Shown here piece after piece: positions 27,393-39,400 of a DNA stretch of 64,000 nucleotides (the first letter of the stretch is position 1; every line of letters starts with the position of its first letter). Location of the stretch: positions 6,014,001 to 6,078,000 of the forward strand of contig CP108997.1 in assembly GCA_036226585.1 (NCBI GenBank). Reading direction: 5' to 3'. The notes beneath the pieces were generated by a model that was given only the letters and a program-made list of their open reading frames with translations, was not told the origin of the DNA and did no database searches. The position numbers and the translations under genes were made by a program. The DNA is from Streptomyces sp. NBC_00708 (GTDB taxonomy: Bacteria; Actinomycetota; Actinomycetes; Streptomycetales; Streptomycetaceae).

Positions 27393-29843
27393 TCAGTGGT
27401 GGCCGTGGTGCCCGTGGCCGCCGTGTCCGTGACCGTGGTCCGGGGCGTTCACGTCGACCCGCACGATCTGCGGGTCGTGGTCGCTCGCCTGGTCGGCGAA
27501 CTCCGCGTTGATGTGCACCACGTCGTAGTCGAAGCGGCGCACCCCCGGGCTGGTCAGGATGTGGTCGAGGGTCTGCGAGTTGCCCTCGTACACATAGCTG
27601 TACTGCTCGTTCTTCGGCAGCGTGGTGATCAGCGGCTTGAGCACCTTGCCGGCGGTCAGCGCGCCCACGGTGGGCGAGAAGGCGAAGTCGTTGAGGTCAC
27701 CGAGGACCACGACCCGCGCCGACTTGTCCGCGGCGAGCAGCGACTTGACGAAGGTGTTGACCTCCTTCGCCTGCTGCACACGCTTGGTCTCCGAGCTGCG
27801 CACCGGCTCCTGGTAGCGGCCGTGCAGCGGCTGGTCGCCGCCCTTGGACGCGAAGTGGTTGCCGACGACGAAGACGGACTTCCCGTGGAAGCGGAACTCG
27901 CCGACCAGCGGCTTGCGGCTGTCGTCCCAGGCCGCACTCGCCGGGGCGATCCGGCCCGGCGACACCGACAGCGTGACGCCCTTCCTCGTCTTCACGGCGG
28001 CCACGGGCGTCGTCGCGTCGCCGCCCGGACGGTCCACGAAGCCGACCCGCTTCGGGTTGAAGAGGAAGACGTTGCGGATGTTGCCGCCGGGCTCGCCGCC
28101 GTCCTTCCCGTCCTGCGGGGCGACATAGCGCCAGGAGTAGCGCGGGCCGCCCGCCGCGACGATCGCGTCCGTGAACCGCTTCAGCGTCGCCTCGGAGCCG
28201 ACCGTGCCGTCGTTGACGGCGCCGTTGTCGTCCTGGATCTCCTCCAGGGACACGATGTCCGGCGAGGAGAGATTGACCGCGACGCCCTCGGCCAGGGTGT
28301 CGAACTTCGTCTGGTCGTCGAGCGCGTCGAGGTTCTCCACGTTGTACGTGGCGACCGCGAGTTCCTTGCCCTTCTGCTTGCGCGTGACCTCGCGCCGCAG
28401 GTGGTGGTCGGTGAGCTTGCCGAGCGCGGTGGCCTGGAGGTTGTAGCCGCCGTACGAGTCGTAGTCCAGGACGCCCGAGGTGGTGCCGGAGAGCACGTCG
28501 CCCACGTTCGCGGTCGGCACCGGCGCGGCCGGGTCCAGCGACAGGACCTTGATCCGGCCGGTGTTCTGGTCGGTGTACGAGGCGTAGAGCGTGCCGCCGC
28601 GCCGGGTCGGGTTCTGCTTCGGCGCGACCGTCACCCAGACCTCGTGGTACGCGGTCGTCGCGCCCGTGACGCGGGTGTCGGCGATCTGGACCCGGGTGCC
28701 CTCCAGGGACTCGTACAGGTCCAGCGCGTACGTCGACGGCTCCAGGGGCAGCGCGTCGATCGAGCCGCCGCCGGCCGAGGGCACGTACTTCGAGGGCACC
28801 GCCTTGGCGTCCAGGACCACCGGCGCGGGCAGCGCGTTGCCGGAGGAGACGACCGTGACCTTCGGCGCGGTGATCTCGGTCACCGACTGGGTGGTGGCCG
28901 ACGGGTAGTACTCGTCCACGGTGCCGCTCACCAGTACCGAGTCCCCCACCTTCACGGCCGGGGCGGCGGAGCCGGTGTATACGAAGACGCCCTCGCCGGT
29001 GCGCGGGTCGGCGTCCGGGGCGGTGTCCTGGATCCAGAAACCGCGCGAACCCGAGGTGCGCACCGCCGTGACGACGCCGGGGACCCCGGTGACCGCCTTG
29101 CCGTCGAGCGGGGAGACCCGGGTGGTGCCCTGGATGTCGTGGATCCGCACGGTGCCGGGCGCGGTGGGGTTGCCCGGGTCGCCCGGGTCCTCGCCGCCGC
29201 CCGAGGTCTCGCCGGCCGCGTTGACCGGGGAGGGGGCCGCCTCGGTGAGGTCGGCCGCGTTGTCGTCGGTGTCCGCGAGCGAGGCCGCGCGCGCCACGGA
29301 TGCGGTGGCCGAGGCGCCCTTCGCGGGGCCACTGCCCTCCCGGACGACCGCGGTGCCGTAGCCGACCAGGTCCACGACGCGGGTGTCGGCGGCGCAGTCG
29401 GCGGCCGTCTTGCAGGTCAGCGGGGTGGTCCCGGAGACCAGGGCGACGGTGCCGGCCGTGGCGGACATCGCGACGGTGCCGGTGGCGTCCGGGGCCGGCA
29501 GCGCGACCGTGCCGCCGGTGCCCGCCGCCTGCGCGACGAGGTAACGGCCGCCGGGCGCGACGGAACCGGTCAGCGCCGAGACCTGCCACAGCGACCCCGC
29601 CGACGGGGCACCGGGCAGGTACTGGACGCTGAACCCGGAGAGGTCGTACGCGGCGGAGCCGGCGTTGGCCAGCTCGACGAAGTCACGGGTGAGCGTCGCA
29701 CCGGAGTTCCCGCCGCCCCCGTACACCTCGGAGATCACGGCGGTCGAGGACGGGGCCGCGAAGGCGGCGGGCAGCGCGGTCGCCGAGAGCGTCACGGCTA
29801 CCGCGCCGGCCAGCAGGGCGGAACGGGTGGTGGATATGCGCAC
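27393..29843 (-). CDS. ExeM/NucH-type secreted endonuclease with histidine-rich tail
   Basis: An 816-residue exported nuclease. A signal peptide (GAVAVTLSATALPAAFAAP) is followed by a lamin-tail-like domain (VISEVYGGGGNSGATLTRDF), an OB-fold-type middle (SVLVSGTVDEYYPSATTQSV), and a C-terminal endonuclease/exonuclease/phosphatase domain. The latter shows ATYNVENLDALDDQTKF, VSLEEIQDDNGA, VGNHFASKGGDQP, VVLGDLNDFAFSP and SDHDPQIVRVD, which contribute the metal ligands and catalytic histidines. The last 15 residues are almost only His, Gly and Asp (DHGHGHGGHGHHGHH). Role: extracellular DNA degradation for nutrient use. Confidence 0.9.
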   Translation of the reverse strand: MRISTTRSALLAGAVAVTLSATALPAAFAAPSSTAVISEVYGGGGNSGATLTRDFVELANAGSAAYDLSGFSVQYLPGAPSAGSLWQVSALTGSVAPGGRYLVAQAAGTGGTVALPAPDATGTVAMSATAGTVALVSGTTPLTCKTAADCAADTRVVDLVGYGTAVVREGSGPAKGASATASVARAASLADTDDNAADLTEAAPSPVNAAGETSGGGEDPGDPGNPTAPGTVRIHDIQGTTRVSPLDGKAVTGVPGVVTAVRTSGSRGFWIQDTAPDADPRTGEGVFVYTGSAAPAVKVGDSVLVSGTVDEYYPSATTQSVTEITAPKVTVVSSGNALPAPVVLDAKAVPSKYVPSAGGGSIDALPLEPSTYALDLYESLEGTRVQIADTRVTGATTAYHEVWVTVAPKQNPTRRGGTLYASYTDQNTGRIKVLSLDPAAPVPTANVGDVLSGTTSGVLDYDSYGGYNLQATALGKLTDHHLRREVTRKQKGKELAVATYNVENLDALDDQTKFDTLAEGVAVNLSSPDIVSLEEIQDDNGAVNDGTVGSEATLKRFTDAIVAAGGPRYSWRYVAPQDGKDGGEPGGNIRNVFLFNPKRVGFVDRPGGDATTPVAAVKTRKGVTLSVSPGRIAPASAAWDDSRKPLVGEFRFHGKSVFVVGNHFASKGGDQPLHGRYQEPVRSSETKRVQQAKEVNTFVKSLLAADKSARVVVLGDLNDFAFSPTVGALTAGKVLKPLITTLPKNEQYSYVYEGNSQTLDHILTSPGVRRFDYDVVHINAEFADQASDHDPQIVRVDVNAPDHGHGHGGHGHHGHH

Positions 29844-29973
29844 GGAGAATGCCCCTCAGAGTGTGGTGAGGGAGCACAAGCTATGCGCGTAGAACAGGCG
29901 ATGACAAGGCATCAGGGGTGAATTCCGGAAAACGTTCGGTGACGAGCGGAGCTGTCCAGGATGCGGCGATGGT

Positions 29974-30003
29974 TTGACCGGGTTGCGCCGGTCCGGCTAC
30001 GTT
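29974..30003 (+). promoter_or_regulatory. Predicted promoter placing the transcript start at the leader-peptide ATG
   Basis: TTGACC at 29974-29979, an 18-bp spacer, and TACGTT at 29998-30003 form a good housekeeping-type promoter. The expected first transcribed base is 30010-30011, the A of the leader ATG, so the message would begin directly with AUG. Confidence 0.65.
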
Positions 30004-30010
30004 GCGCGGC

Positions 30011-30091
30011 ATGCAGCGATCCGCACATCTCACGACGCGGGGTCACATCGACCTCAAGCGGGTGTGCTCCGCCGTGTGTCACCGCGTCTGA
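30011..30091 (+). CDS. Short leader peptide of the actinobacterial sulfur-gene type
   Basis: A 26-residue ORF that ends RGHIDLKRVCSAVCHRV. The pattern H-I/V-D-L-x-R-V-x-S-A-x-C is that of the small peptides NCBI labels putative leader peptide in Streptomyces, usually found ahead of sulfur-assimilation genes. It contains two cysteines. A predicted promoter places +1 at its ATG, making it leaderless. In mycobacteria, leaderless cysteine-rich short ORFs act as cysteine-responsive attenuators; a similar role for the ROK gene 103 bp downstream is inference. Confidence 0.75.
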   Translation: MQRSAHLTTRGHIDLKRVCSAVCHRV

Positions 30092-30193
30092 GGCACCCCG
30101 CCCGCGCCCTCCCGCTCCCCGAGGACCCGCGACCGCGCCCCGTGCCACGCCGACACCGCGACCGTCGCCGCCCCCGAGGACCTGGAAGACACT

Positions 30194-31462
30194 GTGAAGA
30201 GTCTGTCCGCCCCCGTCCGCCGCCCCCACGACACCCGTACCGCCCCGCTGCGCCGCGCCGACATACCCGCGCCGGTGCCGGCCCGCCGCGCGACCGGCAC
30301 CGGCTCCGTCTTCGGCGCGATCCTGGATCACGGCCCCGTCGCCCGGTCCACCGTCGCCCGCCTCACCGGCCTCTCGCCCGCCTCCGTCAGCGGGCACGTC
30401 GGCCGGCTGCTGGCCAGGGGGCTGGTCCGGGAGAGCGCCGAGACGGCCGGGCCCAAGGGGCTCGGCCGGCCGCACATCCCGGTCGAGATCGACACCGGCG
30501 GCTATCTGGTCGCCGGCGCCCATATCGCCGTCGCCCACTCCACCCTCTCGCTGATGGACCTGCGCGGCCGGATCGTCGCCCAGGACCGGCAGCCCCACCG
30601 CACCACGGACCCCCACCGCCTGCTCGCCGGACTCGCCGCCCGGCTGCCCCCGTTGGTGGCCGCCCACGCGGGCGGGCGCACCGTCCTCGCCCTCGGCCTG
30701 GCCACCGGCCACCGCGTCGACCCCGAGAACGGTGTGATCGTCGCGCACCCGCAGCTCGGCTGGGAGGACGTCCCCGCCCGCGAGGTGCTCACCGCCGCGA
30801 CCGGGCTGCCCGTCCACGTGGACAGCCACTCCCGCGCCCTGGCCCGTGCCGAGCAGCTGTTCGGCCAGGAATCGACGCGGGCCAGCACCGTCCTGCTCTT
30901 CGTCGGCGCGGTTGTGGACGCCGCCTTCGCCACCGAGGGCGCCCTGCACCGGGGCCCGCGCTCCGGAGCGGGCAGCGTCGCCCATCTGCCGCTGGGCGCC
31001 GGGGGATCGGGCGGCGCGGAGCCGTGCTCCTGCGGGCGGTCCGGCTGCCTCCAGTCGGAGGTCTCGGAGCGGGCCATGGTGCGGCGCGCCGCCGCCCAGG
31101 GGCTGGTGACCGGGTCCTTCCCGGAGCTGCTGGAGAAGGCGCTGGCCGGGGACGCGCGGGCGGTCGAGCTGTTCCGCCGGCGGGCCCGGCTGGTGGGCCG
31201 GGCCGCGGCCCTGCTCCTGGACATGTTCGACCCGGAGGTGCTCGTCGTCGTCGAGCCGGGGGCCGGGCGGATGCCGGAGTGCCTGGCCGATCTGCGCGCG
31301 GAGGTGGCCGAGCGCTCCTGGGTCTGCGACGACCCGGAGCGGGCCGTGGTGCCGAGCAGCTTCACCGGCTCGGTGCTGGCCGTGGCCGGCGGGGCGGTGG
31401 CGCTCGGCTCGCTGTACACGGACCCGCTCGGGCCGTGGCCGGCACTGCCCGCGGTGTCCTGA
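30194..31462 (+). CDS. ROK family transcriptional regulator
   Basis: A 422-residue protein. A winged helix-turn-helix (SRSTVARLTGL-like: VARSTVARLTGLSPASVSGH) is followed by a ROK sugar-kinase-like domain with the zinc motif CSCGRSGCLQSE. The kinase phosphate motif is not convincing, so it is probably a regulator and not a sugar kinase. GTG 30194 follows CTGGAAGACACT. ROK repressors normally sense sugars, but this one lies between a sulfur-type leader peptide and a sulfonate-type ABC operon, which suggests control of organosulfur use. Confidence 0.87.
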   Translation: MKSLSAPVRRPHDTRTAPLRRADIPAPVPARRATGTGSVFGAILDHGPVARSTVARLTGLSPASVSGHVGRLLARGLVRESAETAGPKGLGRPHIPVEIDTGGYLVAGAHIAVAHSTLSLMDLRGRIVAQDRQPHRTTDPHRLLAGLAARLPPLVAAHAGGRTVLALGLATGHRVDPENGVIVAHPQLGWEDVPAREVLTAATGLPVHVDSHSRALARAEQLFGQESTRASTVLLFVGAVVDAAFATEGALHRGPRSGAGSVAHLPLGAGGSGGAEPCSCGRSGCLQSEVSERAMVRRAAAQGLVTGSFPELLEKALAGDARAVELFRRRARLVGRAAALLLDMFDPEVLVVVEPGAGRMPECLADLRAEVAERSWVCDDPERAVVPSSFTGSVLAVAGGAVALGSLYTDPLGPWPALPAVS

Positions 31463-31517
31463 ATCCGGACGCGCCGCACCCCTCCCGTCATCCGACTTAA
31501 TTCAGTCAGTTGCATTG

Positions 31518-31547
31518 TTGACCGGCCCCGAACCCCGACGGGATGAT
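31518..31547 (+). promoter_or_regulatory. Candidate promoter of the organosulfur operon
   Basis: TTGACC at 31518-31523, an 18-bp spacer and GATGAT at 31542-31547. The -35 is the same hexamer and the spacing is the same as in the promoter at 29974, but the -10 is weaker. The predicted start falls on or next to the ATG at 31554. Confidence 0.45.
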
Positions 31548-31553
31548 GGATTC

Positions 31554-31673
31554 ATGACCAGCCGACAGCGGAATTCAGGGAAAGCGTCCTCGGTGACGCG
31601 GCCCTTCCGCTCGTCCGCGCCCACGGCCGCCCCGCTGCGTCCGTGTTGCGGCCGCTGTCCGGGCCTCCGGTAA
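31554..31673 (+). CDS. Candidate cysteine-rich upstream ORF (39 residues)
   Basis: ATG 31554 opens a 39-codon frame ending LRPCCGRCPGLR then TAA. Three cysteines in five residues near the end are unusual in a random GC-rich frame, and the ATG lies seven bases after a candidate -10, so the message could be leaderless. It is 152 bp upstream of the flavin reductase. It does not match the 30011 peptide family. It may be a cysteine-sensing upstream ORF for the operon or chance. Confidence 0.4.
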   Translation: MTSRQRNSGKASSVTRPFRSSAPTAAPLRPCCGRCPGLR

Positions 31674-31825
31674 ATACCCGCTGATATTCGGCGAACGTTC
31701 CGCGCGTCCGCGCGCCTCGCCGTGCGCGATTCCGTGAATGCCTCCGTGCGCACCGCCGCGCGCGTTTCCCCGCGACCACGGCAATTCCTCGCTGCCCTTT
31801 CCGACTTCCCACCCCGGGAGAGACG

Positions 31826-32350
31826 TTGACCGTCACTGTGCCCTCGTACGCCGCCCCTGCCGCCGTCCCCGCCCAGGCGGGGATCGCCCCCGACCGCTTC
31901 CGGAAGGCGTTCCGCCGCTACCCCGCCGGGGTCGTCGTCATCACCACCGACTCCGGCCGCGGACCCGTCGGCTTCACCGCCACCTCGCTCACCTCGCTCT
32001 CGCTCACCCCGCCGCTGATCTCGTTCGGCATCGGGACCACCACCTCCTCCTGGCCGCACTTCGAGCACGCCCGTACGGCGGTCGTGCACTTCCTCGCCGC
32101 CGAACAGCAGCCCCTGGCCGCCACCTTCGCGACCAGCGGAATCGACCGCTTCGCCGCCCCCACCCGCTGGCGCCGCCTGCCCGGCGGCGAACCGCTGCTC
32201 GACGAGGTGGCCGGCCACCTGCGGGTGGAGACCGAGCAGATCGTGCCCGCCGGTGACCACCGCATCGTCATCGCCCGGGTGGTGGACGCCCAGCTCGACG
32301 AGGGCCGTAGTCCCCTGCTCTTCCACGACGGCGCCTACCTCTCCCTCTGA
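31826..32350 (+). CDS. Flavin reductase (FMN-type, HpaC-like)
   Basis: A 174-residue protein. FRKAFRRYPAGVVVITTDSG and VGFTATSLTSLSLTPPLISF are the standard N-terminal flavin-binding stretches of the FlRed/HpaC family, and HRIVIARVVDAQLDEGRSPL with LLFHDGAYLSL its end. It reduces FMN with NAD(P)H and passes FMNH2 to a partner monooxygenase, here surely the one at 35063. The start is TTG 31826, supported by GGGAGAG five bases upstream; GTG 31838 is an alternative. First gene of the operon. Confidence 0.88.
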   Translation: MTVTVPSYAAPAAVPAQAGIAPDRFRKAFRRYPAGVVVITTDSGRGPVGFTATSLTSLSLTPPLISFGIGTTTSSWPHFEHARTAVVHFLAAEQQPLAATFATSGIDRFAAPTRWRRLPGGEPLLDEVAGHLRVETEQIVPAGDHRIVIARVVDAQLDEGRSPLLFHDGAYLSL

Positions 32351-32369
32351 CCGGATCAGGACCTCTCCC

Positions 32370-33437
32370 ATGCCACGCCACCGCACCTCCCCGACGCTCG
32401 GCCGCCGCTCGTTCCTCGCCCTCGGCGGCACCGCCCTCATCGGGACGCTCGCCGCCTGCTCCCCGCAGACGAAATCCGCGGCGAGCGCCGAACCGGCCGG
32501 AAAACTGCCGTCCGGGGCGCCGCCACCCGGCACGAAACTCTCCGTCGCCGTCCGTTCCACGCGTCTCCAACTCGGCCCCGCCGGACTGGAGAAGGACCTT
32601 CCCTTCACCGTTTCGCAATGGCCTAACCTGAGCGCGGGCCCCGATATCATCCAGGGATTCCGGGCGCATTCCATCGACCTGGCCGTCAACGCCGGAATTC
32701 CGCCGATCCAGGCCCACGCCATCGACGTCGGCGCGAAGATCGTCGCCGTGCAGGTGCGGAACAACCCCTCGTACGTCTTCGCCACCGCACCCGGCTCCGA
32801 CATCCGGTCCGTCGACGACTTCCGGGGCCGGAAGATCGGGTTCTCCCAGGGGCAGGCCCAGGGAGTCGTGGTGCTGCGGGCGCTCAAGCAGGCGGGCATC
32901 GACAACAAGGACGTGGAGCTGGTCGCCCTGCCCAGCACCCAGTTCCTCACCGCCCTGCAGTCCAAGCAGGTCGACGTCGCCCCGCTCGGCGAACCCACCC
33001 TCACCAAGTACCTCTCCCAGTACGGCAAGGACGGGGCGCGCGGCGTGAAGACCGATGTCGTGGACCTGCTCTCGGTGCTCTGGGCACCCAACGAGGTGCT
33101 GAACGACCGGGCCAAGGCCGCCGCCGTCCGCAGCTTCATTCCGCTGTGGGCCAGGGGCCAGGTCTGGGCGTGGGAGAACACCGACGAGTGGATCGACACG
33201 TACTACGTCAAGGACCAGGGCGTCTCGCGGGAGGACGGCAAGCGCATCGTCGCCTCGCTCAACAAGCCGCTCTTCCCGGCCTCCTGGGACAAGGCCATCG
33301 CCTGGGAGCAGGAGACCGCCGACCTGCTCGCCGCCGGCGGATTCGTACCGGAGCAGGACGCCACCGAACTGTTCGACCGCCGCTTCGAGGGGCTGGCGGC
33401 CGAGGCCGTGTCCGCCCCGTACCGGGAGAAGCCATGA
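32370..33437 (+). CDS. ABC transporter substrate-binding lipoprotein (SsuA/TauA-like)
   Basis: A 355-residue periplasmic-type binding protein. The N-terminus has a twin-arginine-like GRRSFLALGG and a lipobox LAAC. The mature part matches the aliphatic-sulfonate/nitrate/taurine family: DLAVNAGIPPIQAHAIDVGA, SVDDFRGRKIGFSQGQAQG, LPSTQFLTALQSKQVDVAPL. It should deliver a sulfonate, sulfate ester or other small anion to the permease. ATG 32370 follows AGGACC; the longer open frame overlaps the flavin reductase and is not used. Its stop overlaps the permease start (ATGA). Confidence 0.9.
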   Translation: MPRHRTSPTLGRRSFLALGGTALIGTLAACSPQTKSAASAEPAGKLPSGAPPPGTKLSVAVRSTRLQLGPAGLEKDLPFTVSQWPNLSAGPDIIQGFRAHSIDLAVNAGIPPIQAHAIDVGAKIVAVQVRNNPSYVFATAPGSDIRSVDDFRGRKIGFSQGQAQGVVVLRALKQAGIDNKDVELVALPSTQFLTALQSKQVDVAPLGEPTLTKYLSQYGKDGARGVKTDVVDLLSVLWAPNEVLNDRAKAAAVRSFIPLWARGQVWAWENTDEWIDTYYVKDQGVSREDGKRIVASLNKPLFPASWDKAIAWEQETADLLAAGGFVPEQDATELFDRRFEGLAAEAVSAPYREKP

Positions 33438-34306
33438 CCGAGCTGCTGACGCACACCACCCGCCCCGCCCCGCCGGTCACCACGGCCGCCGCCCCCGCCA
33501 AGGCACCGGCCCCGGCACCCAGGGGCACCCGCAGACGGCTGGGCCCCGGCCGGGCCGTCCCCTTCGGGCGGCTCATCGGCCCGGTGCTGGTCATCGCCCT
33601 GTGGTGGGCCGCCTCCGCCACCGGCTATCTGGACCCCCGGATCCTCTCCGGACCCGGCACCGTCCTGTCCACCGCGTCGGACCTCGTCTCCAGCGGCCGG
33701 CTCCAGGACAACGTCCTCATCTCGCTCCAGCGCGCCGGACTCGGCCTCTTCTTCGGGGTGAGTGCCGGGGTCCTCCTCGCCGTCGCCGCCGGACTGAGCC
33801 GGACCGGCGAATACCTCCTGGACGGCCCGCTTCAGATCAAGCGCGCCATCCCCTCCCTGGCCATGCTCCCGCTGCTGATCCTCTGGCTCGGCATCGGCGA
33901 GCAGATGAAGGTCACCGTCATCGCGCTCGGCGTCGCGGTGAACATGTACATCAACACGTACGCCTCGCTCACCGGCATCGACAGCCGGTACGTCGAACTC
34001 GCCGAAGGGCTCGACCTGAGCCGTGCGCAGTTCATCCGCAAGGTCGTCGTGCCCGGCTCGCTGCCCGGCTTCTTCGTCGGGCTGCGCCTCGGCGTCACCG
34101 CCTCCTGGCTCGGGCTGATCGTCGTCGAGCAGATCAACGCCACCAGCGGCATCGGCTACATGATGTTCCAGGCCCAGCAGTACGCCCAGTCCGACGTGAT
34201 CATCGTGGGCCTGGTGGCCTACGGGATCTTCGGATTCGCATCGGACGCGGCGGTCCGCGCCGTCGAGAGGAAGGTCCTGTCATGGCGACGCACCCTGGCG
34301 GGCTGA
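33434..34306 (+). CDS. ABC transporter permease (SsuC-like)
   Basis: A 290-residue membrane protein with about six helices after a 45-residue Pro/Ala-rich N-terminus. The cytoplasmic coupling loop is EGLDLSRAQFIRKVVVPGSLPGFFVGLRLG, the E-A-A-type motif of binding-protein-dependent permeases of the sulfonate/nitrate group. ATG 33434 overlaps the upstream stop, and the 3' end overlaps the ATPase gene by 25 bp, so SBP, permease and ATPase form one translationally coupled importer. Confidence 0.92.
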   Translation: MTELLTHTTRPAPPVTTAAAPAKAPAPAPRGTRRRLGPGRAVPFGRLIGPVLVIALWWAASATGYLDPRILSGPGTVLSTASDLVSSGRLQDNVLISLQRAGLGLFFGVSAGVLLAVAAGLSRTGEYLLDGPLQIKRAIPSLAMLPLLILWLGIGEQMKVTVIALGVAVNMYINTYASLTGIDSRYVELAEGLDLSRAQFIRKVVVPGSLPGFFVGLRLGVTASWLGLIVVEQINATSGIGYMMFQAQQYAQSDVIIVGLVAYGIFGFASDAAVRAVERKVLSWRRTLAG

Positions 34307-35079
34307 CCGGCCCCGGCGCGACGGCCGTCGCCGCGCGCCCCGCCATCCGCACCCGGAAACTGGTCCGCCGCTTCGGCGACCGCGACATCCTCAAGGAGCT
34401 CGACCTCACCGTCGCGCCCGGCGAGTTCACCGCCCTGCTCGGCCGCAGCGGCTCGGGCAAGTCCACCCTGCTGCGGGCCGTCGCCCGACTCGACCACACC
34501 GTCGAGGGCTCCGGCGAACTCACCGTCCCCGACCGGGTCTCGCTCTCCTTCCAGGACTCCCGGCTGCTGCCCTGGCTCCGGCTCATCGACAACGTCACCC
34601 TCGGGCTGCGCGGCCCCGGGGCCCGGGAACGCGGCCTCACCGCCCTCGCCGAGGTCGGCCTGAAGGGCCGCGACCGCTCCTGGCCGCACGAGCTGTCCGG
34701 CGGCGAACAGCAGCGCGCCGCCCTCGCCCGCGCCCTGGTCCGCGAACCCGAACTCCTCCTCGCGGACGAGCCGTTCGGCGCCCTCGACGCGCTGACCCGG
34801 ATCAAGATGCACGACCTGCTGCGCGAACTCTACGAACGCCACCGCCCCGCGGTGCTCCTGGTCACCCACGACGTCGACGAGGCCGTCGAACTCGCGGACC
34901 GGGTCCTGGTCCTGGAGGACGGCCGGATCTCCGTCGACCTCACCGTCGACCTCCCGACCCCGCGCTCCCGCCGCGACCCCCGCTTCCAGGAATACCGCGA
35001 CACCCTGCTGACCGCCCTCGGGGTCGGCGGCCCCCAGCCCCTCACCGATGCGAAGGACTCCCATGACCACCACGCCTGA
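34282..35079 (+). CDS. ABC transporter ATP-binding protein (SsuB-like)
   Basis: A 265-residue ATPase. Walker A is GRSGSGKST, the Q-loop is SFQDSRLLPW, the signature is LSGGEQQRAALARAL, Walker B is LLLADEPFGALDALTR, and the switch histidine is in VTHDVDEA. The FQDSRLLPW form is typical of sulfonate/nitrate importers. ATG 34282 follows GAGAGGAAGG. It overlaps the monooxygenase start at 35063 by 17 bp. Confidence 0.93.
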   Translation: MATHPGGLTGPGATAVAARPAIRTRKLVRRFGDRDILKELDLTVAPGEFTALLGRSGSGKSTLLRAVARLDHTVEGSGELTVPDRVSLSFQDSRLLPWLRLIDNVTLGLRGPGARERGLTALAEVGLKGRDRSWPHELSGGEQQRAALARALVREPELLLADEPFGALDALTRIKMHDLLRELYERHRPAVLLVTHDVDEAVELADRVLVLEDGRISVDLTVDLPTPRSRRDPRFQEYRDTLLTALGVGGPQPLTDAKDSHDHHA

Positions 35080-36448
35080 GCGCAAGCAGCTCCACCTCAA
35101 CGCCTTCCTCATGTCCACCGGCCACCACGAGGCGTCCTGGCGGCTGCCCGAGAGCCCGGCCGAGGCCAACTCCGACATCGAGCACTACAAGAACCTCGCC
35201 CGGATCGCGGAACGCGGCAGGCTGGACTCGCTGTTCCTCGCCGACAGCCCCGTCCTGATGGGCGACCCCGGCCGCCGGCCCGCCGCCAAGCTGGAACCCA
35301 CGGTCCTGCTCACCGCGCTCGCCGGGGCCACCCGCCACATCGGCCTCATCGCCACCGCGTCCACCAGCTACAACGAGCCGTACAACCTGGCCCGCAGGTT
35401 CGCCTCGCTCGACCACGTATCGGGCGGCCGGGCCGGCTGGAACATCGTCACCACCGCGGGCGCCGACGCGGCCCGCAACTTCGGCCTGGACGACACCCCG
35501 CTGCACCGCGACCGCTACCGGCGCGCCGGCGAGTTCGTCGAGGTGTCCACCAAGCTCTGGGACAGCTGGGCCGACGACGCGGTGATCGCCGACAAGGAGC
35601 GCGGGGTGCACGCGCTGGCCGAGCGGGTGCGGCAGATCGGGCACCGGGGCGAGTTCTTCCGCGTCGACGGGCCGCTCAACGTACAACGCCCCCCGCAGGG
35701 CTACCCGTTGCTCGTCCAGGCCGGCTCCAGCGAGGACGGCAAGGACTTCGCGGCCCGGTACGCGGAGGCGGTGTTCACCGCCCAGCAGACCCTGGAGGAG
35801 GGCATCGCCTTCTACAAGGACGTCAAGGAGCGCGCCACCGCCCTCGGCCGCAACCCCGACGGCATCAAGATCCTGCCCGGCATCGTCCCCGTCATCGGCG
35901 ACACCGAGGCCGAGGCACTGGAGCTCGACGCCGAACTGGAGAACCTCATCGTCCCCGAGTACGCCAAGATCCAGCTGGCCAAGCGGCTGAAGATCGCCCC
36001 CGACGACCTCGACCTGGACGCGGAACTCCCCGAGGACATCCCCACCGAGGACGACATCGAGGGCGCCAAGAGCCGCTACACCCTCATCGTGGAGCTGGCC
36101 AGGCGCGAGAAGCTGACCGTACGTCACCTCATCGGCCGGCTCGGCGGCGGACGCGGCCACCGCACCTTCGCCGGCACGGCCGAGCAGGTCGCGGACACCA
36201 TCGAGCACTGGTACGACAGCGGGGCCGCCGACGGCTTCAACATCATGCCCGCCGTCCTCCCGTCCGGCCTGGAGGTCTTCGTGGACCGGGTGGTCCCGAT
36301 CCTCCAGGAGCGCGGCCTGTTCCGCACCGAGTACACCGCGAGCACCCTGCGCGGCCACTACGGGCTGCCGCGCCCCGCGAACCGCCTCTTCGACGAGATC
36401 GTCCGCGGCGCCGGCGACTACGGCATCGGTCTGGCGGAGGCCCGGTGA
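35063..36448 (+). CDS. FMNH2-dependent monooxygenase (NtaA/SnaA/DszA family)
   Basis: A 461-residue luciferase-like enzyme. Family marks: HLNAFLMSTGHHEASWR at the start, SLFLADSPVLMGD, FASLDHVSGGRAGWNIVTTA, HRDRYRRAGEFVEV and the late GRGHRTFAGTAEQVAD. These enzymes use FMNH2 from a separate reductase to break C-S or C-N bonds, for example in dibenzothiophene sulfone or nitrilotriacetate. With the importer and the flavin reductase in the same operon it is likely a desulfonating or C-S cleaving enzyme. ATG 35063 (after GAAGGAC) is preferred to ATG 35048. Confidence 0.9.
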   Translation: MTTTPERKQLHLNAFLMSTGHHEASWRLPESPAEANSDIEHYKNLARIAERGRLDSLFLADSPVLMGDPGRRPAAKLEPTVLLTALAGATRHIGLIATASTSYNEPYNLARRFASLDHVSGGRAGWNIVTTAGADAARNFGLDDTPLHRDRYRRAGEFVEVSTKLWDSWADDAVIADKERGVHALAERVRQIGHRGEFFRVDGPLNVQRPPQGYPLLVQAGSSEDGKDFAARYAEAVFTAQQTLEEGIAFYKDVKERATALGRNPDGIKILPGIVPVIGDTEAEALELDAELENLIVPEYAKIQLAKRLKIAPDDLDLDAELPEDIPTEDDIEGAKSRYTLIVELARREKLTVRHLIGRLGGGRGHRTFAGTAEQVADTIEHWYDSGAADGFNIMPAVLPSGLEVFVDRVVPILQERGLFRTEYTASTLRGHYGLPRPANRLFDEIVRGAGDYGIGLAEAR

Positions 36449-39400
36449 CCGACTGTCCGAACCCGGGGACCGGTCCGGGCGGGGGCGCGGTCCGGCAGCC
36501 GTCGCCCGGCTGGGCGCGGCGGCTGCTGGGCTACTGCCTGCGCCACCGCACCGATCTCCTCATGGCCTTCGGTGCCGCCGTGACCGCCGCCGTCGCCACC
36601 GCCACCCTGCCCCTCGTGCTGCGGCACGTGGTGGACGGGGTGGCGGCCGGCACCACCGCATCCCTCGCCCCCTGGACCGGGCTGCTCGTCGCACTCGGCG
36701 CGCTCCGGTTCGGCGCGGCCTTCACCCGCCGCTACCGCTCGGGGCGGCTCTCCCTGGGGGTCCAGTACGACCTGCGCAACGACGCGTTCGCCGCGCTGCT
36801 CCGGCTCGGCGGAGCCCAGCAGGACGACCTGCGCACCGGACAGGTGGTGAGCCGGTCCATCTCCGACATCACGCTCATCCAGACCCTGCTGCAGTTCCTG
36901 CCCAACCTCACGGGCAACGCCCTGATGTTCCTGTTCTCGCTGGTCGTCATGGCCTGCCTGTCCCCGCTGCTGACCGTCGTGGCGCTGGTCGTCGGCCCGC
37001 TGCTCTGGCTGATCGCGCTGCGCAGCCGTCGCGAGCTGTTCCCCGCCAACTGGCATGCCCAGCAGGAGGCCGCCGAAGTCGCCTCCACCGTCGAGGCGAC
37101 CGTCACCGGCGTCCGGGTGGTGAAGGGCTTCGGCCAGGAACAGCGCGAACTCACCGGCCTCGAAGCACGCGCCCGCCACCTCTTCGCCTCCCGGCTGCGC
37201 GTCGTCCGCTTCACCAGCCGCTACAACCCCGCCCTCCAGGCGGTCCCCGCGCTCGGCCAGGTCGCCGTGCTGGCGCTCGGCGGCTGGATGGCCCTGCACG
37301 GCCGGATCTCGCTCGGTACCTTCCTCGCGTTCACCACCTACCTGGGCTCCTTCGTCACCCCCGTACGCCAGGTCGCCACCCTGCTCACCGTCTGGCAGCA
37401 GGCCCGCGCCGGCGCCGAACGCGTCCTGGAGGTCGTGGACGAGGCCCCCGTCATCACCGACGCGCCCGATGCCCGCCCCCTGCCCGACGAACCCCCCGCC
37501 CTCTCCTGGGACGGCGTCACCTTCGGATACGGCGACGCGGCCCCGCTCCTCGACGGCTTCACCCTGGACATCCGCCCCGGCGAGACCCTGGCCCTCATCG
37601 GCCCGGCCGGCTCCGGCAAATCCACCGCCGCCGCCCTGCTGCCCCGCTTCTACGACGTACCCTCCGGGGCGGTACGGGTCGGCGGCACCGACGTCCGCGA
37701 CCTCGCCCTCGCCTCGCTGCGCTCCCGGATCGGCTACGTCTTCGAGGAGAGCCTGCTCCTCTCCGACACCGTGCGCGCCAACATCGCGTACGGGAGGCCG
37801 GACGCCACCGACGAGCAGGTGCGCGCCGCGGCCCGGATCGCCCGCGCCGACGAGTTCATCGAACGGCTCCCGCAGGGCTACGACACCCTCGTCGGCGAAC
37901 AGGGCCTCACCCTGTCCGGCGGCCAGCGCCAGCGCATGGCGCTCGCCCGCGCGCTCATCGGCGACCCGGCCGTGCTCGTCCTGGACGACGCCACCTCCGC
38001 CATCGACGCCCGGGTCGAGGCCGAGATCCACCACCGGCTGCGCGCGGACGACCGCCGCCGCACCACGCTGATCATCGCCCACCGCCGCTCCACCCTGGAA
38101 CTCGCGGACCGCGTCGCGATCCTCGACGGTGGCCGCGTCACGGACATCGGCACACCCGACGAACTGCGCGGCAGATCCGCCCTGTTCCGCGAGCTCCTGG
38201 CCACCGACGACCCCCACGACGACGCCATCGCACCCGACCCCGGCTGCCCCACCCCGCACCTGTGGCTGCGCCCCGAGGAGGACGAGGACGAACAGCTGGA
38301 GGGCACCGCCGTGCGGGCCGCCCAGGCGCTCGCCGAGGCCGCCGCCACCTCCGGGCCCGGACGCGCCGGACCCGGCGGCGGGGTGCTCGGCTCGGCCCCG
38401 CCCACCCCCGAACTCCTCGCCGGCCTCGCCCGCCTCCCGCTGCCCGCCGCCGACCCGAAGGTGCCGACCGAACAGGCCGTCGCCGCCGACGCGCACTTCG
38501 GGCTCGGAGTCCTGCTGCGGCCCTTCCGGCTGCCCCTGCTCCTCGGCCTGCTGCTCGTCGCGCTCGACGCGGGCGCCCAGATCACCGTGCCGGTCCTCGT
38601 CCGGTACGGAGTGGACCGGGGCGTCGCCCATCACGCCGGGCACGTCCTGCTCGCCGCTGCCGCCGCTGCCGCCGTCGTGGTGGCCGCCAACTGGCTGATC
38701 GGCGTGGCCCAGGTGCGCACCACCGGACGCACCGGCGAACGCCTCCTCTACACCCTGCGGGTGAAGACCTTCGCCCAGCTCCAGCGCCTCGGCCTCGACT
38801 ACTACGAGCGCGAACTCGGCGGCCGGATCATGACCCGGATGACCACCGACGTGGACGCCCTGTCGAACTTCCTGCAGACCGGCCTGATCACCGCCGTGGT
38901 CAGCCTGCTCACGGTCCTCGGCGTCCTGGCCGCCCTGCTGGTGATCGACGCTGAACTCGCCCTGGTGCTGCTCGCCGCGCTCCCGGTGCTGATCGCGGCC
39001 ACCGCTGTCTTCCGCCACTACTCGGTCCCCGCCTACCGCGAGGCCCGGGAGCGGATCAGCGCCGTCAACGCCTGCCTCCAGGAGAACGTCACCGCGATCC
39101 GCGTCACCCAGGCGTTCCGCCGCGAGCAGCGCAACGCCGCCGACTTCGCCGTACTGGCCATGGCGTTCCGGGACTCCCGGCTGCGCGCGCAGCGGTACAT
39201 GGGCACGTTCTTCCCGTTCGTCGAATTCCTCGGCACGCTCTGCTCGGCGGCCGTGCTCACCGCCGGCGCGGCCCAGGTCCGCTCGGGCGAGCTGAGCGCG
39301 GGCACCCTCATCGCGTTCCTGCTGTACGTCGAGCTGTTCTTCTCGCCGATCCAGCAGCTCTCGCAGGTCTTCGACGGGTACCAGCAGGCGGTCGTCGGCC

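Follow-up and report, generated by a model that had tools for sequence, protein, structure and literature searches.

Two predicted cysteine-responsive leader peptides at a ROK regulator and sulfonate-type operon locus of Streptomyces

Introduction

In mycobacteria, upstream open reading frames (uORFs) that are enriched in cysteine codons and lie on leaderless mRNAs precede cysA2, Rv0485 and nirA, according to Shell 2015 (PMC4633059); the mycobacterial precedent of leaderless cysteine uORFs at sulfur genes, on which the original prediction for the present locus drew, holds. Here we describe two short open reading frames (ORFs), ORF1 and ORF2, in a 64,000-nucleotide stretch of Streptomyces sp. 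NBC_00708 (the window; G000:C1:6014001-6078000 of a 7.65-megabase source genome). ORF1 lies ahead of a gene encoding a ROK family regulator and ORF2 ahead of a sulfonate-type operon, and we consider it likely that they encode two cis-acting, cysteine-responsive leader peptides serving two transcription units at one locus. In the open-licence literature, we found no paper that describes cysteine leaders at a sulfonate or ROK locus of Streptomyces.

In leaders of the trpL or leu type, the key codons lie a few codons before the stop codon, and the less usual codon is used. The leaders described here likewise have cysteine codons a short distance ahead of the stop and use the less usual codon, and they differ in their predicted leaderless-type start and in that no terminator was found in the window. 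With the mycobacterial polycysteine leaderless ORFs (Shell 2015; Canestrari 2020) they share the predicted leaderless-type start, the 3′-clustered cysteine codons and the sulfur-gene setting. Unlike those ORFs, ORF2 belongs to another peptide family and lies ahead of an operon of the sulfonate type, a single locus has two leaders, and folding models do not predict pairing of the downstream ribosome-binding site for ORF2. Two curated models also come close: ORF1 aligns to most of NF042936 (Ms4527A cysteine-rich leader) and of NF042934 (putative leader peptide), although under their cut-offs, whereas the tested copies of ORF2 match neither.

If our interpretation is right, ORF2 would add an unannotated leader family to ribosome-based cysteine sensing, and two different sensor designs would occur at one sulfur-scavenging locus. 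The codon preference of ORF2 would make codon-specific stalling accessible to study in an organism with a high GC (guanine-cytosine) content, and a candidate target site of a ROK-type regulator would be open to testing.

ORF2, a predicted polycysteine-type leader peptide

On the plus strand, the locus consists of ORF1, the ROK gene, ORF2, a flavin reductase gene, SsuABC-like genes and an NtaA/DmoA-family monooxygenase gene. A scan of named genomes yielded 45 loci with similar ROK genes, 44 from Streptomycetaceae and one from Frankia sp. EI5c (L121), the genera being Streptomyces, Actinacidiphila and the one Frankia. The window and the 44 Streptomycetaceae loci form the conservation set of 45 used below. 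One short ORF with leaderless-type spacing was expected before the ROK gene and one before the sulfonate-type operon, and these were found in 42 and 45 of the 45 loci, respectively.

ORF2 (31554..31673, plus strand) encodes 39 amino acids ending in RPCCGRCPGLR, with its stop codon at 31671-31673. Its predicted promoter, TTGACC-N18-GATGAT (31518..31547, plus strand), has TTGACC at 31518-31523 and GATGAT at 31542-31547. The length, the CCGRC motif and both hexamers are as originally read, and the ATG needs correction: it lies 6 bases after the second hexamer, not seven. This promoter was the sole promoter-like site in a consensus scan of 29850-31900 (shuffles gave 0.0). Its spacing is conserved: counted from the start of TTGACC, the ATG follows after 36 bases in 43 loci and after 35 in two (L087 and L112). 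In the Frankia locus, we found no ORF2.

The cysteines of ORF2 were predicted to be conserved among relatives, and they are: each copy has 2-6, with at least two in 45/45 and at least three in 36/45, even as the length ranges from 18 to 60 amino acids and the peptide body diverges widely, the cysteine codons and their position being retained. The codons cluster near the 3′ end. Of 161 cysteines, 110 fall in the last 12 residues, often non-contiguously, and two copies have none there. Four codons separate the last cysteine from the stop in 25 of the 45 copies (3 in the window's ORF1), and the stop codon is TAA in 28. Three copies (L108, L110 and L113) terminate in CCC, a form known from mycobacteria.

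This enrichment is specific to the reading frame. Across the 45 copies, the 161 in-frame cysteines compare with 50 and 23 in the other two frames and with 53.7 ± 7.0 in base shuffles, and among 20 representatives, picked by a crude alignment score, the corresponding counts are 70 in frame versus 26 and 10. Cysteine is also the most over-represented residue of ORF2 (z 15.3 for the 45 copies and 10.2 for the representatives). When loci were drawn a second time, from 392 genomes and by a DNA pattern, 26 were obtained, and ORF2 has at least two cysteines in all of them; this draw is not independent with regard to the ORF2 start, because the pattern contains the ATG, and it overlaps the first set.

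The cysteine codons of ORF2 are mostly TGT (123, versus 38 TGC). TGT is thus preferred in ORF2 despite being the lesser cysteine codon of the surrounding genes: ROK genes of the same loci, where readable without internal stops, have 44 TGT and 193 TGC, and the counts for seven genes in the operon region of the window are 1 TGT and 11 TGC. Slower decoding of TGT could sharpen the response.

At E up to 1, the window's ORF2 matches nothing in NCBIfam or Pfam. Three further natural copies were compared with NCBIfam: two were unmatched and one gave a chance-level match (10.3 bits, cut-off 380). When 5.8 billion proteins were searched with a profile, restricted to sequences sharing short exact words, a single protein came within an E of 0.01. 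From its sequence features, ORF2 thus appears to be a so far unannotated leader-peptide family of a known kind.

ORF1, a leader-peptide-like ORF upstream of the ROK gene

ORF1 (30011..30091, plus strand; MQRSAHLTTRGHIDLKRVCSAVCHRV) is a predicted leaderless cysteine leader peptide of 26 amino acids with its stop codon at 30089-30091. Its ATG is placed 7 bases after TTGACC-N18-TACGTT (29974..30003, plus strand; TTGACC at 29974-29979, TACGTT at 29998-30003). This predicted promoter is absent from the consensus scan of 29850-31900, its second hexamer lying under the scan threshold. A TANNTT-type second hexamer is present in all 42 loci with ORF1, and the distance from the start of TTGAC to the ATG is 37 bases in 40 of them and 36 in one, with TTGAC unseen in one. 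The three loci in which ORF1 was not found (L092, L117 and L120) are contigs without upstream DNA.

Among 33 distinct copies of ORF1, substitutions are chiefly at third codon positions, the coding-type pattern that had been proposed as a check. All 33 keep both cysteines, Cys19 being always TGC and Cys23 always TGT, and the core RGHxDLKRVCSAxC is fixed except for both x. The stop codon is TGA in 39/42 copies. Against NF042936, ORF1 scores 31.9 bits (cut-off 45; model positions 3-19 of 21 aligned) and against NF042934 22.5 bits (cut-off 27; positions 2-19 of 19 aligned); a common variant of ORF1 scores 32.2 and 22.1 bits, respectively. Because it aligns over most of both models yet stays under their cut-offs, we call ORF1 leader-peptide-like only: judged by its sequence, it resembles the known cysteine leader type and is no certified family member. 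Together with the ROK gene, it would represent a further case of a kind already known.

A conserved block at the ORF2 promoter

A near-invariant 27-base block, TTAATTCA-N4-GTTGCATTGTTGACC (31497..31523, plus strand), includes the -35 element of the ORF2 promoter and is a candidate regulator site. In the window and the 44 other loci, TTAATTCA is identical in 45/45 and GTTGCATTGTTGACC almost so, with the middle free. The block contains a dyad, AATTCA-N6-TGCATT, which is imperfect (5/6 positions) and centred at about -46 from the ORF2 ATG; given the choice of offsets, this dyad could be due to chance. The second hexamer of the ORF2 promoter begins with G in 44/45 loci, and such a G-first -10 element would suit an activated promoter.

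Of 295 Streptomyces genomes, 22 contain the full block pattern, at one site each with up to 2 mismatches (reversed control: 0), and a second block pattern occurs in 26 of 392 genomes. Within its own genome, the first 20 bases of the block have one site at up to 3 mismatches, as does the reversed control (likewise 1). We rejected a wider regulon for the block on the basis of these counts; since there is a single site in its own genome and the patterns occur in 22/295 and 26/392 genomes, the block is local and the locus a minority trait. A local regulator would fit such a site, and the adjacent ROK protein is, most simply, the obvious candidate.

Locus L012 has its TTGACC 235 bases after the end of the ROK match, compared with 42-70 bases in the others of L001-L014, and retains both ORF2 and the block.

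Leaders at ROK homologues in other families

With a threshold of E up to 1e-40, a class-wide search found ROK homologues in 95 of 296 genomes, and 40 regions were taken, including the best match of each of the 22 listed genomes of one family (f4), presumably the Mycobacteriaceae. Upstream of ROK, all 22 f4 loci have short ORFs with at least two cysteines in the last 15 residues, whose sequences are unlike ORF1; this property alone is satisfied in 6.9 of 22 dinucleotide shuffles. Within 560 bases upstream of the ROK match, 22/22 have a short ORF with CC close to its end (dinucleotide shuffles: mean 1.2, maximum 3), and 16/22 have one with CCC (mean 0.0, maximum 1). The f4 homologues (L152-L171, L184 and L185) have two more unrelated cysteine-rich ORF types, CCC and VTYVTAALG...ELCC; neither of the two examples compared, one per type, matched an NCBIfam family. 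In L168, the CC sits in a different short ORF from the presumed leader. In L158, the gene next to ROK is MshA (TIGR03449, over cut-off), an order that agrees with that of Rv0485, which we take to be a ROK regulator preceding mshA. In the open-licence literature, we found no paper naming Rv0485 together with ROK.

Leaders with the HIDL motif were seen at some other ROK homologues. Family f18 has such a leader, RAH[IV]DLRRVASALC, in 3 of 5 loci, and in one f18 locus (L186) the following gene is taurine-dioxygenase-like, at 218.9 bits against a cut-off of 313. Frankia sp. EI5c has an HIDL leader, ROK, and SsuABC-like homologues at 27, 42 and 64% identity. Other counts speak against a universal leader-ROK link: HIDL leaders were seen in 4 of 16 ROK homologues of about 52% identity (L015-L030; one of those without is a short contig) and in 5 of the 8 additional loci L125-L132. 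None was seen in the 11 loci taken from families f19, f46, f26 and f17. In f19 (L172-L177, L180 and L190), the ROK match is preceded in 3 of 8 loci by a short ORF that has CC close to its end (shuffles: 0.2). The unrelated cysteine leaders at ROK homologues suggest that a link between cysteine and ROK was selected repeatedly, or was kept while the leader changed.

Leader-type matches elsewhere in the source genome

In the source genome, NF042934 has 24 matches at E up to 10, of which nine exceed 20 bits and six are over the cut-off; ORF1 is among the three that exceed 20 bits but stay under it. Control genomes have matches in 10 of 14 cases, none over the cut-off. Of the other eight matches in the source genome that exceed 20 bits, one is followed by a cysteine synthase gene (over cut-off), and others precede genes whose best matches, all under cut-off, are nitrite/sulfite-reductase-like, mercaptopyruvate-sulfurtransferase-like and flavin-reductase-like. 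Further matches precede dicarboxylate-symporter-like and oligopeptide-binding-like genes (best matches, under cut-off). Two genes that follow leader-type matches were unmatched at 1e-10, and one of these, read by eye, looks cysteine-dioxygenase-like. Since leader-type matches lie before a sulfurtransferase-like gene, ROK and a NirA-like gene, all three locus types published for mycobacteria have counterparts in this genome.

At L039 (G000:C1:3723202-3723258), a leader-type match under the cut-off is followed by a gene for which NCBIfam gave no match at 1e-10. The same genome also has a ROK paralogue that is 47% identical (G000:C1:6961656-6962990; L033 and L188). About 115 bases after the end of this paralogue match lies a leader-type match, before the oligopeptide-binding-like gene, and here the leader is thus downstream of ROK.

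Proposed regulation and alternative explanations

Under the mechanism that we propose, each mRNA would start at the ATG of its own leader. When Cys-tRNA is scarce, the ribosome would slow or halt at the cysteine codons near the end of the leader, and this stalled translation would lead to expression of the downstream gene. The leaders would thus probably switch their downstream genes on when cysteine runs short, with ORF1 (the HIDL...SAxC type) setting the level of ROK, and ORF2 (the polycysteine type) controlling the operon for the flavin reductase, the sulfonate-type ATP-binding cassette transporter and the monooxygenase. ROK may act as an additional input, as originally suggested. We consider the action of the two peptides as cysteine-responsive cis leaders likely because of their conservation, their cysteine enrichment and the polycysteine ORFs of f4, which match the published mycobacterial case.

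A number of results weigh against this interpretation. ORF1 passes neither curated cut-off (NF042936 or NF042934), and the early codons of ORF2 vary little, for which a constraint on the promoter or on initiation is another possible cause. Two of the five f18 loci have no leader that we could see, which argues against a universal leader-ROK link, and many other ROK homologues have no leader found upstream. We found no terminator-like sites in 29850-31900, the window being the one sequence scanned. In thermodynamic folding models, which miss tertiary and co-transcriptional effects, the mean z relative to shuffles is -0.58 for the 44 ORF2 spacers (-0.72 when the end of ORF2 is included) and 0.07 for the 42 ORF1 spacers (-0.50 with ORF1), with z below -2 in 1, 4, 2 and 5 loci, respectively; the spacers would thus be at most slightly more stable than shuffles. 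Pairing between the ORF2 end and the ribosome-binding site of the flavin reductase gene is 0.023 versus 0.029 in shuffles, and a modelled stall shifts access to that site by -0.001 on average, both in 40 loci. (The stall models masked ribosome footprints and left out 4 loci with spacers of more than 260 nucleotides, and L103, which has no flavin reductase.) Finally, the pooled ORF2 spacers have fractions of 0.405 C and 0.268 G, and their C-over-G bubble value is 0.251, compared with 0.236 in shuffles (one shuffle per locus).

How stalling could affect the downstream gene is a separate question. Because the spacers vary from about 88 to 439 nucleotides with at most slight extra stability, we tentatively lean, by exclusion, towards a step without a fixed hairpin (of a Rho or polarity type) for ORF2, a choice that we rate as quite possible while slightly favouring its negation; Rho itself has no positive support, since the C-over-G bubble is near the shuffled value. 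Translation attenuation, in which mRNA structure would bury the downstream ribosome-binding site until a stall at the cysteine codons unmasks it, is described for M. smegmatis cysteine leaders (PMC9031893; PMC13236596). The flavin reductase site is indeed mostly paired in the models (mean access 0.17 over 44 loci), but shuffling the upstream bases does not raise this value (0.15), and access is lower at the 5% level in 0/44 loci. The pairing of the ORF2 end at shuffle level and the unchanged access upon a modelled stall also speak against it, so that unmasking is unsupported for ORF2. The ROK site leans slightly to burial: where a ribosome-binding site was recognised (18 loci), it is somewhat less open than when its upstream bases are shuffled (0.26 versus 0.34; mean z of -0.44). 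On balance, we regard unmasking as doubtful. Transcription attenuation of the classical kind, in which the spacer would hold an intrinsic terminator and an antiterminator, would be in keeping with the short distance of 3 or 4 codons between the last cysteine and the stop, similar to that in trpL, but the window lacks a terminator-like site, spacer stability is near that of shuffles, and spacer lengths differ greatly (113-439 nucleotides for ORF2 and about 88-439 for ORF1). It appears improbable and is not our leading model.

The conserved stretches could instead be protein-binding promoter DNA, the ORFs being by-products of a conserved -10 element and start rather than sensors. The near invariance of 31497-31523 and the low variation in early ORF2 codons are what this explanation predicts, but past the promoter the cysteine codons stay in frame 0 while the peptide and its length (18-60 amino acids) change, and ORF1 changes chiefly at third positions; we thus consider it very unlikely. 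Even less credible to us is a trans-acting role of the peptides, such as that of small proteins binding thiols or metals. Their cysteine-rich sequence would suit such a role, yet the body of ORF2 diverges while its cysteine codons and their place are kept, and the same genes lie downstream in nearly all loci.

The cis-leader interpretation can be extended into a cysteine-gated coherent feed-forward switch, a scheme that strikes us as more doubtful than the leaders themselves. Here, ORF1 would raise the level of an activating ROK protein when cysteine is limiting, ROK would act at the AATTCA-N6-TGCATT dyad, and ORF2 would separately free the operon without a conserved hairpin, with unrelated cysteine leaders having been recruited at homologous ROK genes across actinobacterial families. 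The scheme would draw on the nascent-peptide-like character of ORF1, the location of the dyad beside a promoter with a poor -10 element, and the prevalence of TGT in ORF2.

Genes and spacers of the locus

The gene content is as originally described, as judged by Pfam and NCBIfam profile matches. After the untranslated spacer that follows ORF1 (30092..30193, plus strand; about 88-439 nucleotides across 42 loci, measured to the start of the ROK match), the ROK family regulator (30194..31462, plus strand) combines a MarR-type winged helix with a ROK domain (PF12802, 32.7 bits, and PF00480, 100.2 bits, both above cut-offs). The untranslated spacer between ORF2 and the flavin reductase gene (31674..31825, plus strand; 113-439 nucleotides over 44 loci) is pyrimidine-rich. 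The flavin reductase gene (31826..32350, plus strand; PF01613, 128.5 bits) is the first of the operon and has a TTG start, replaced by ATG or GTG in some relatives (44 loci compared). It is followed, all on the plus strand, by genes for an SsuA-like substrate-binding lipoprotein (32373..33437; TIGR01728, 101.7 bits, under the cut-off of 163.5), an SsuC-like permease (33434..34306; NF008470, 190.1 bits, under 347), an SsuB-like ATPase (34306..35079, start approximate; NF008420, 253.1 bits, under 395) and an NtaA/DmoA family flavin mononucleotide-dependent monooxygenase (35063..36448, start approximate; TIGR03860, 551.3 bits, over 279.7). Since the transporter parts are under the curated sulfonate cut-offs and the monooxygenase is over its own, we regard an organosulfur substrate for the operon as likely, by family membership, and not proven.

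An Rfam search of 29800-36500 gave a single match, far under its gathering score and inside the transporter genes, and no plasmid records were found in a search for near matches. Among the 45 fetched loci, 43 have a flavin reductase gene downstream in the same orientation. Locus L103 has ORF2 with no flavin reductase found beside it, and in L105 the gene order is altered such that the monooxygenase immediately follows the reductase.

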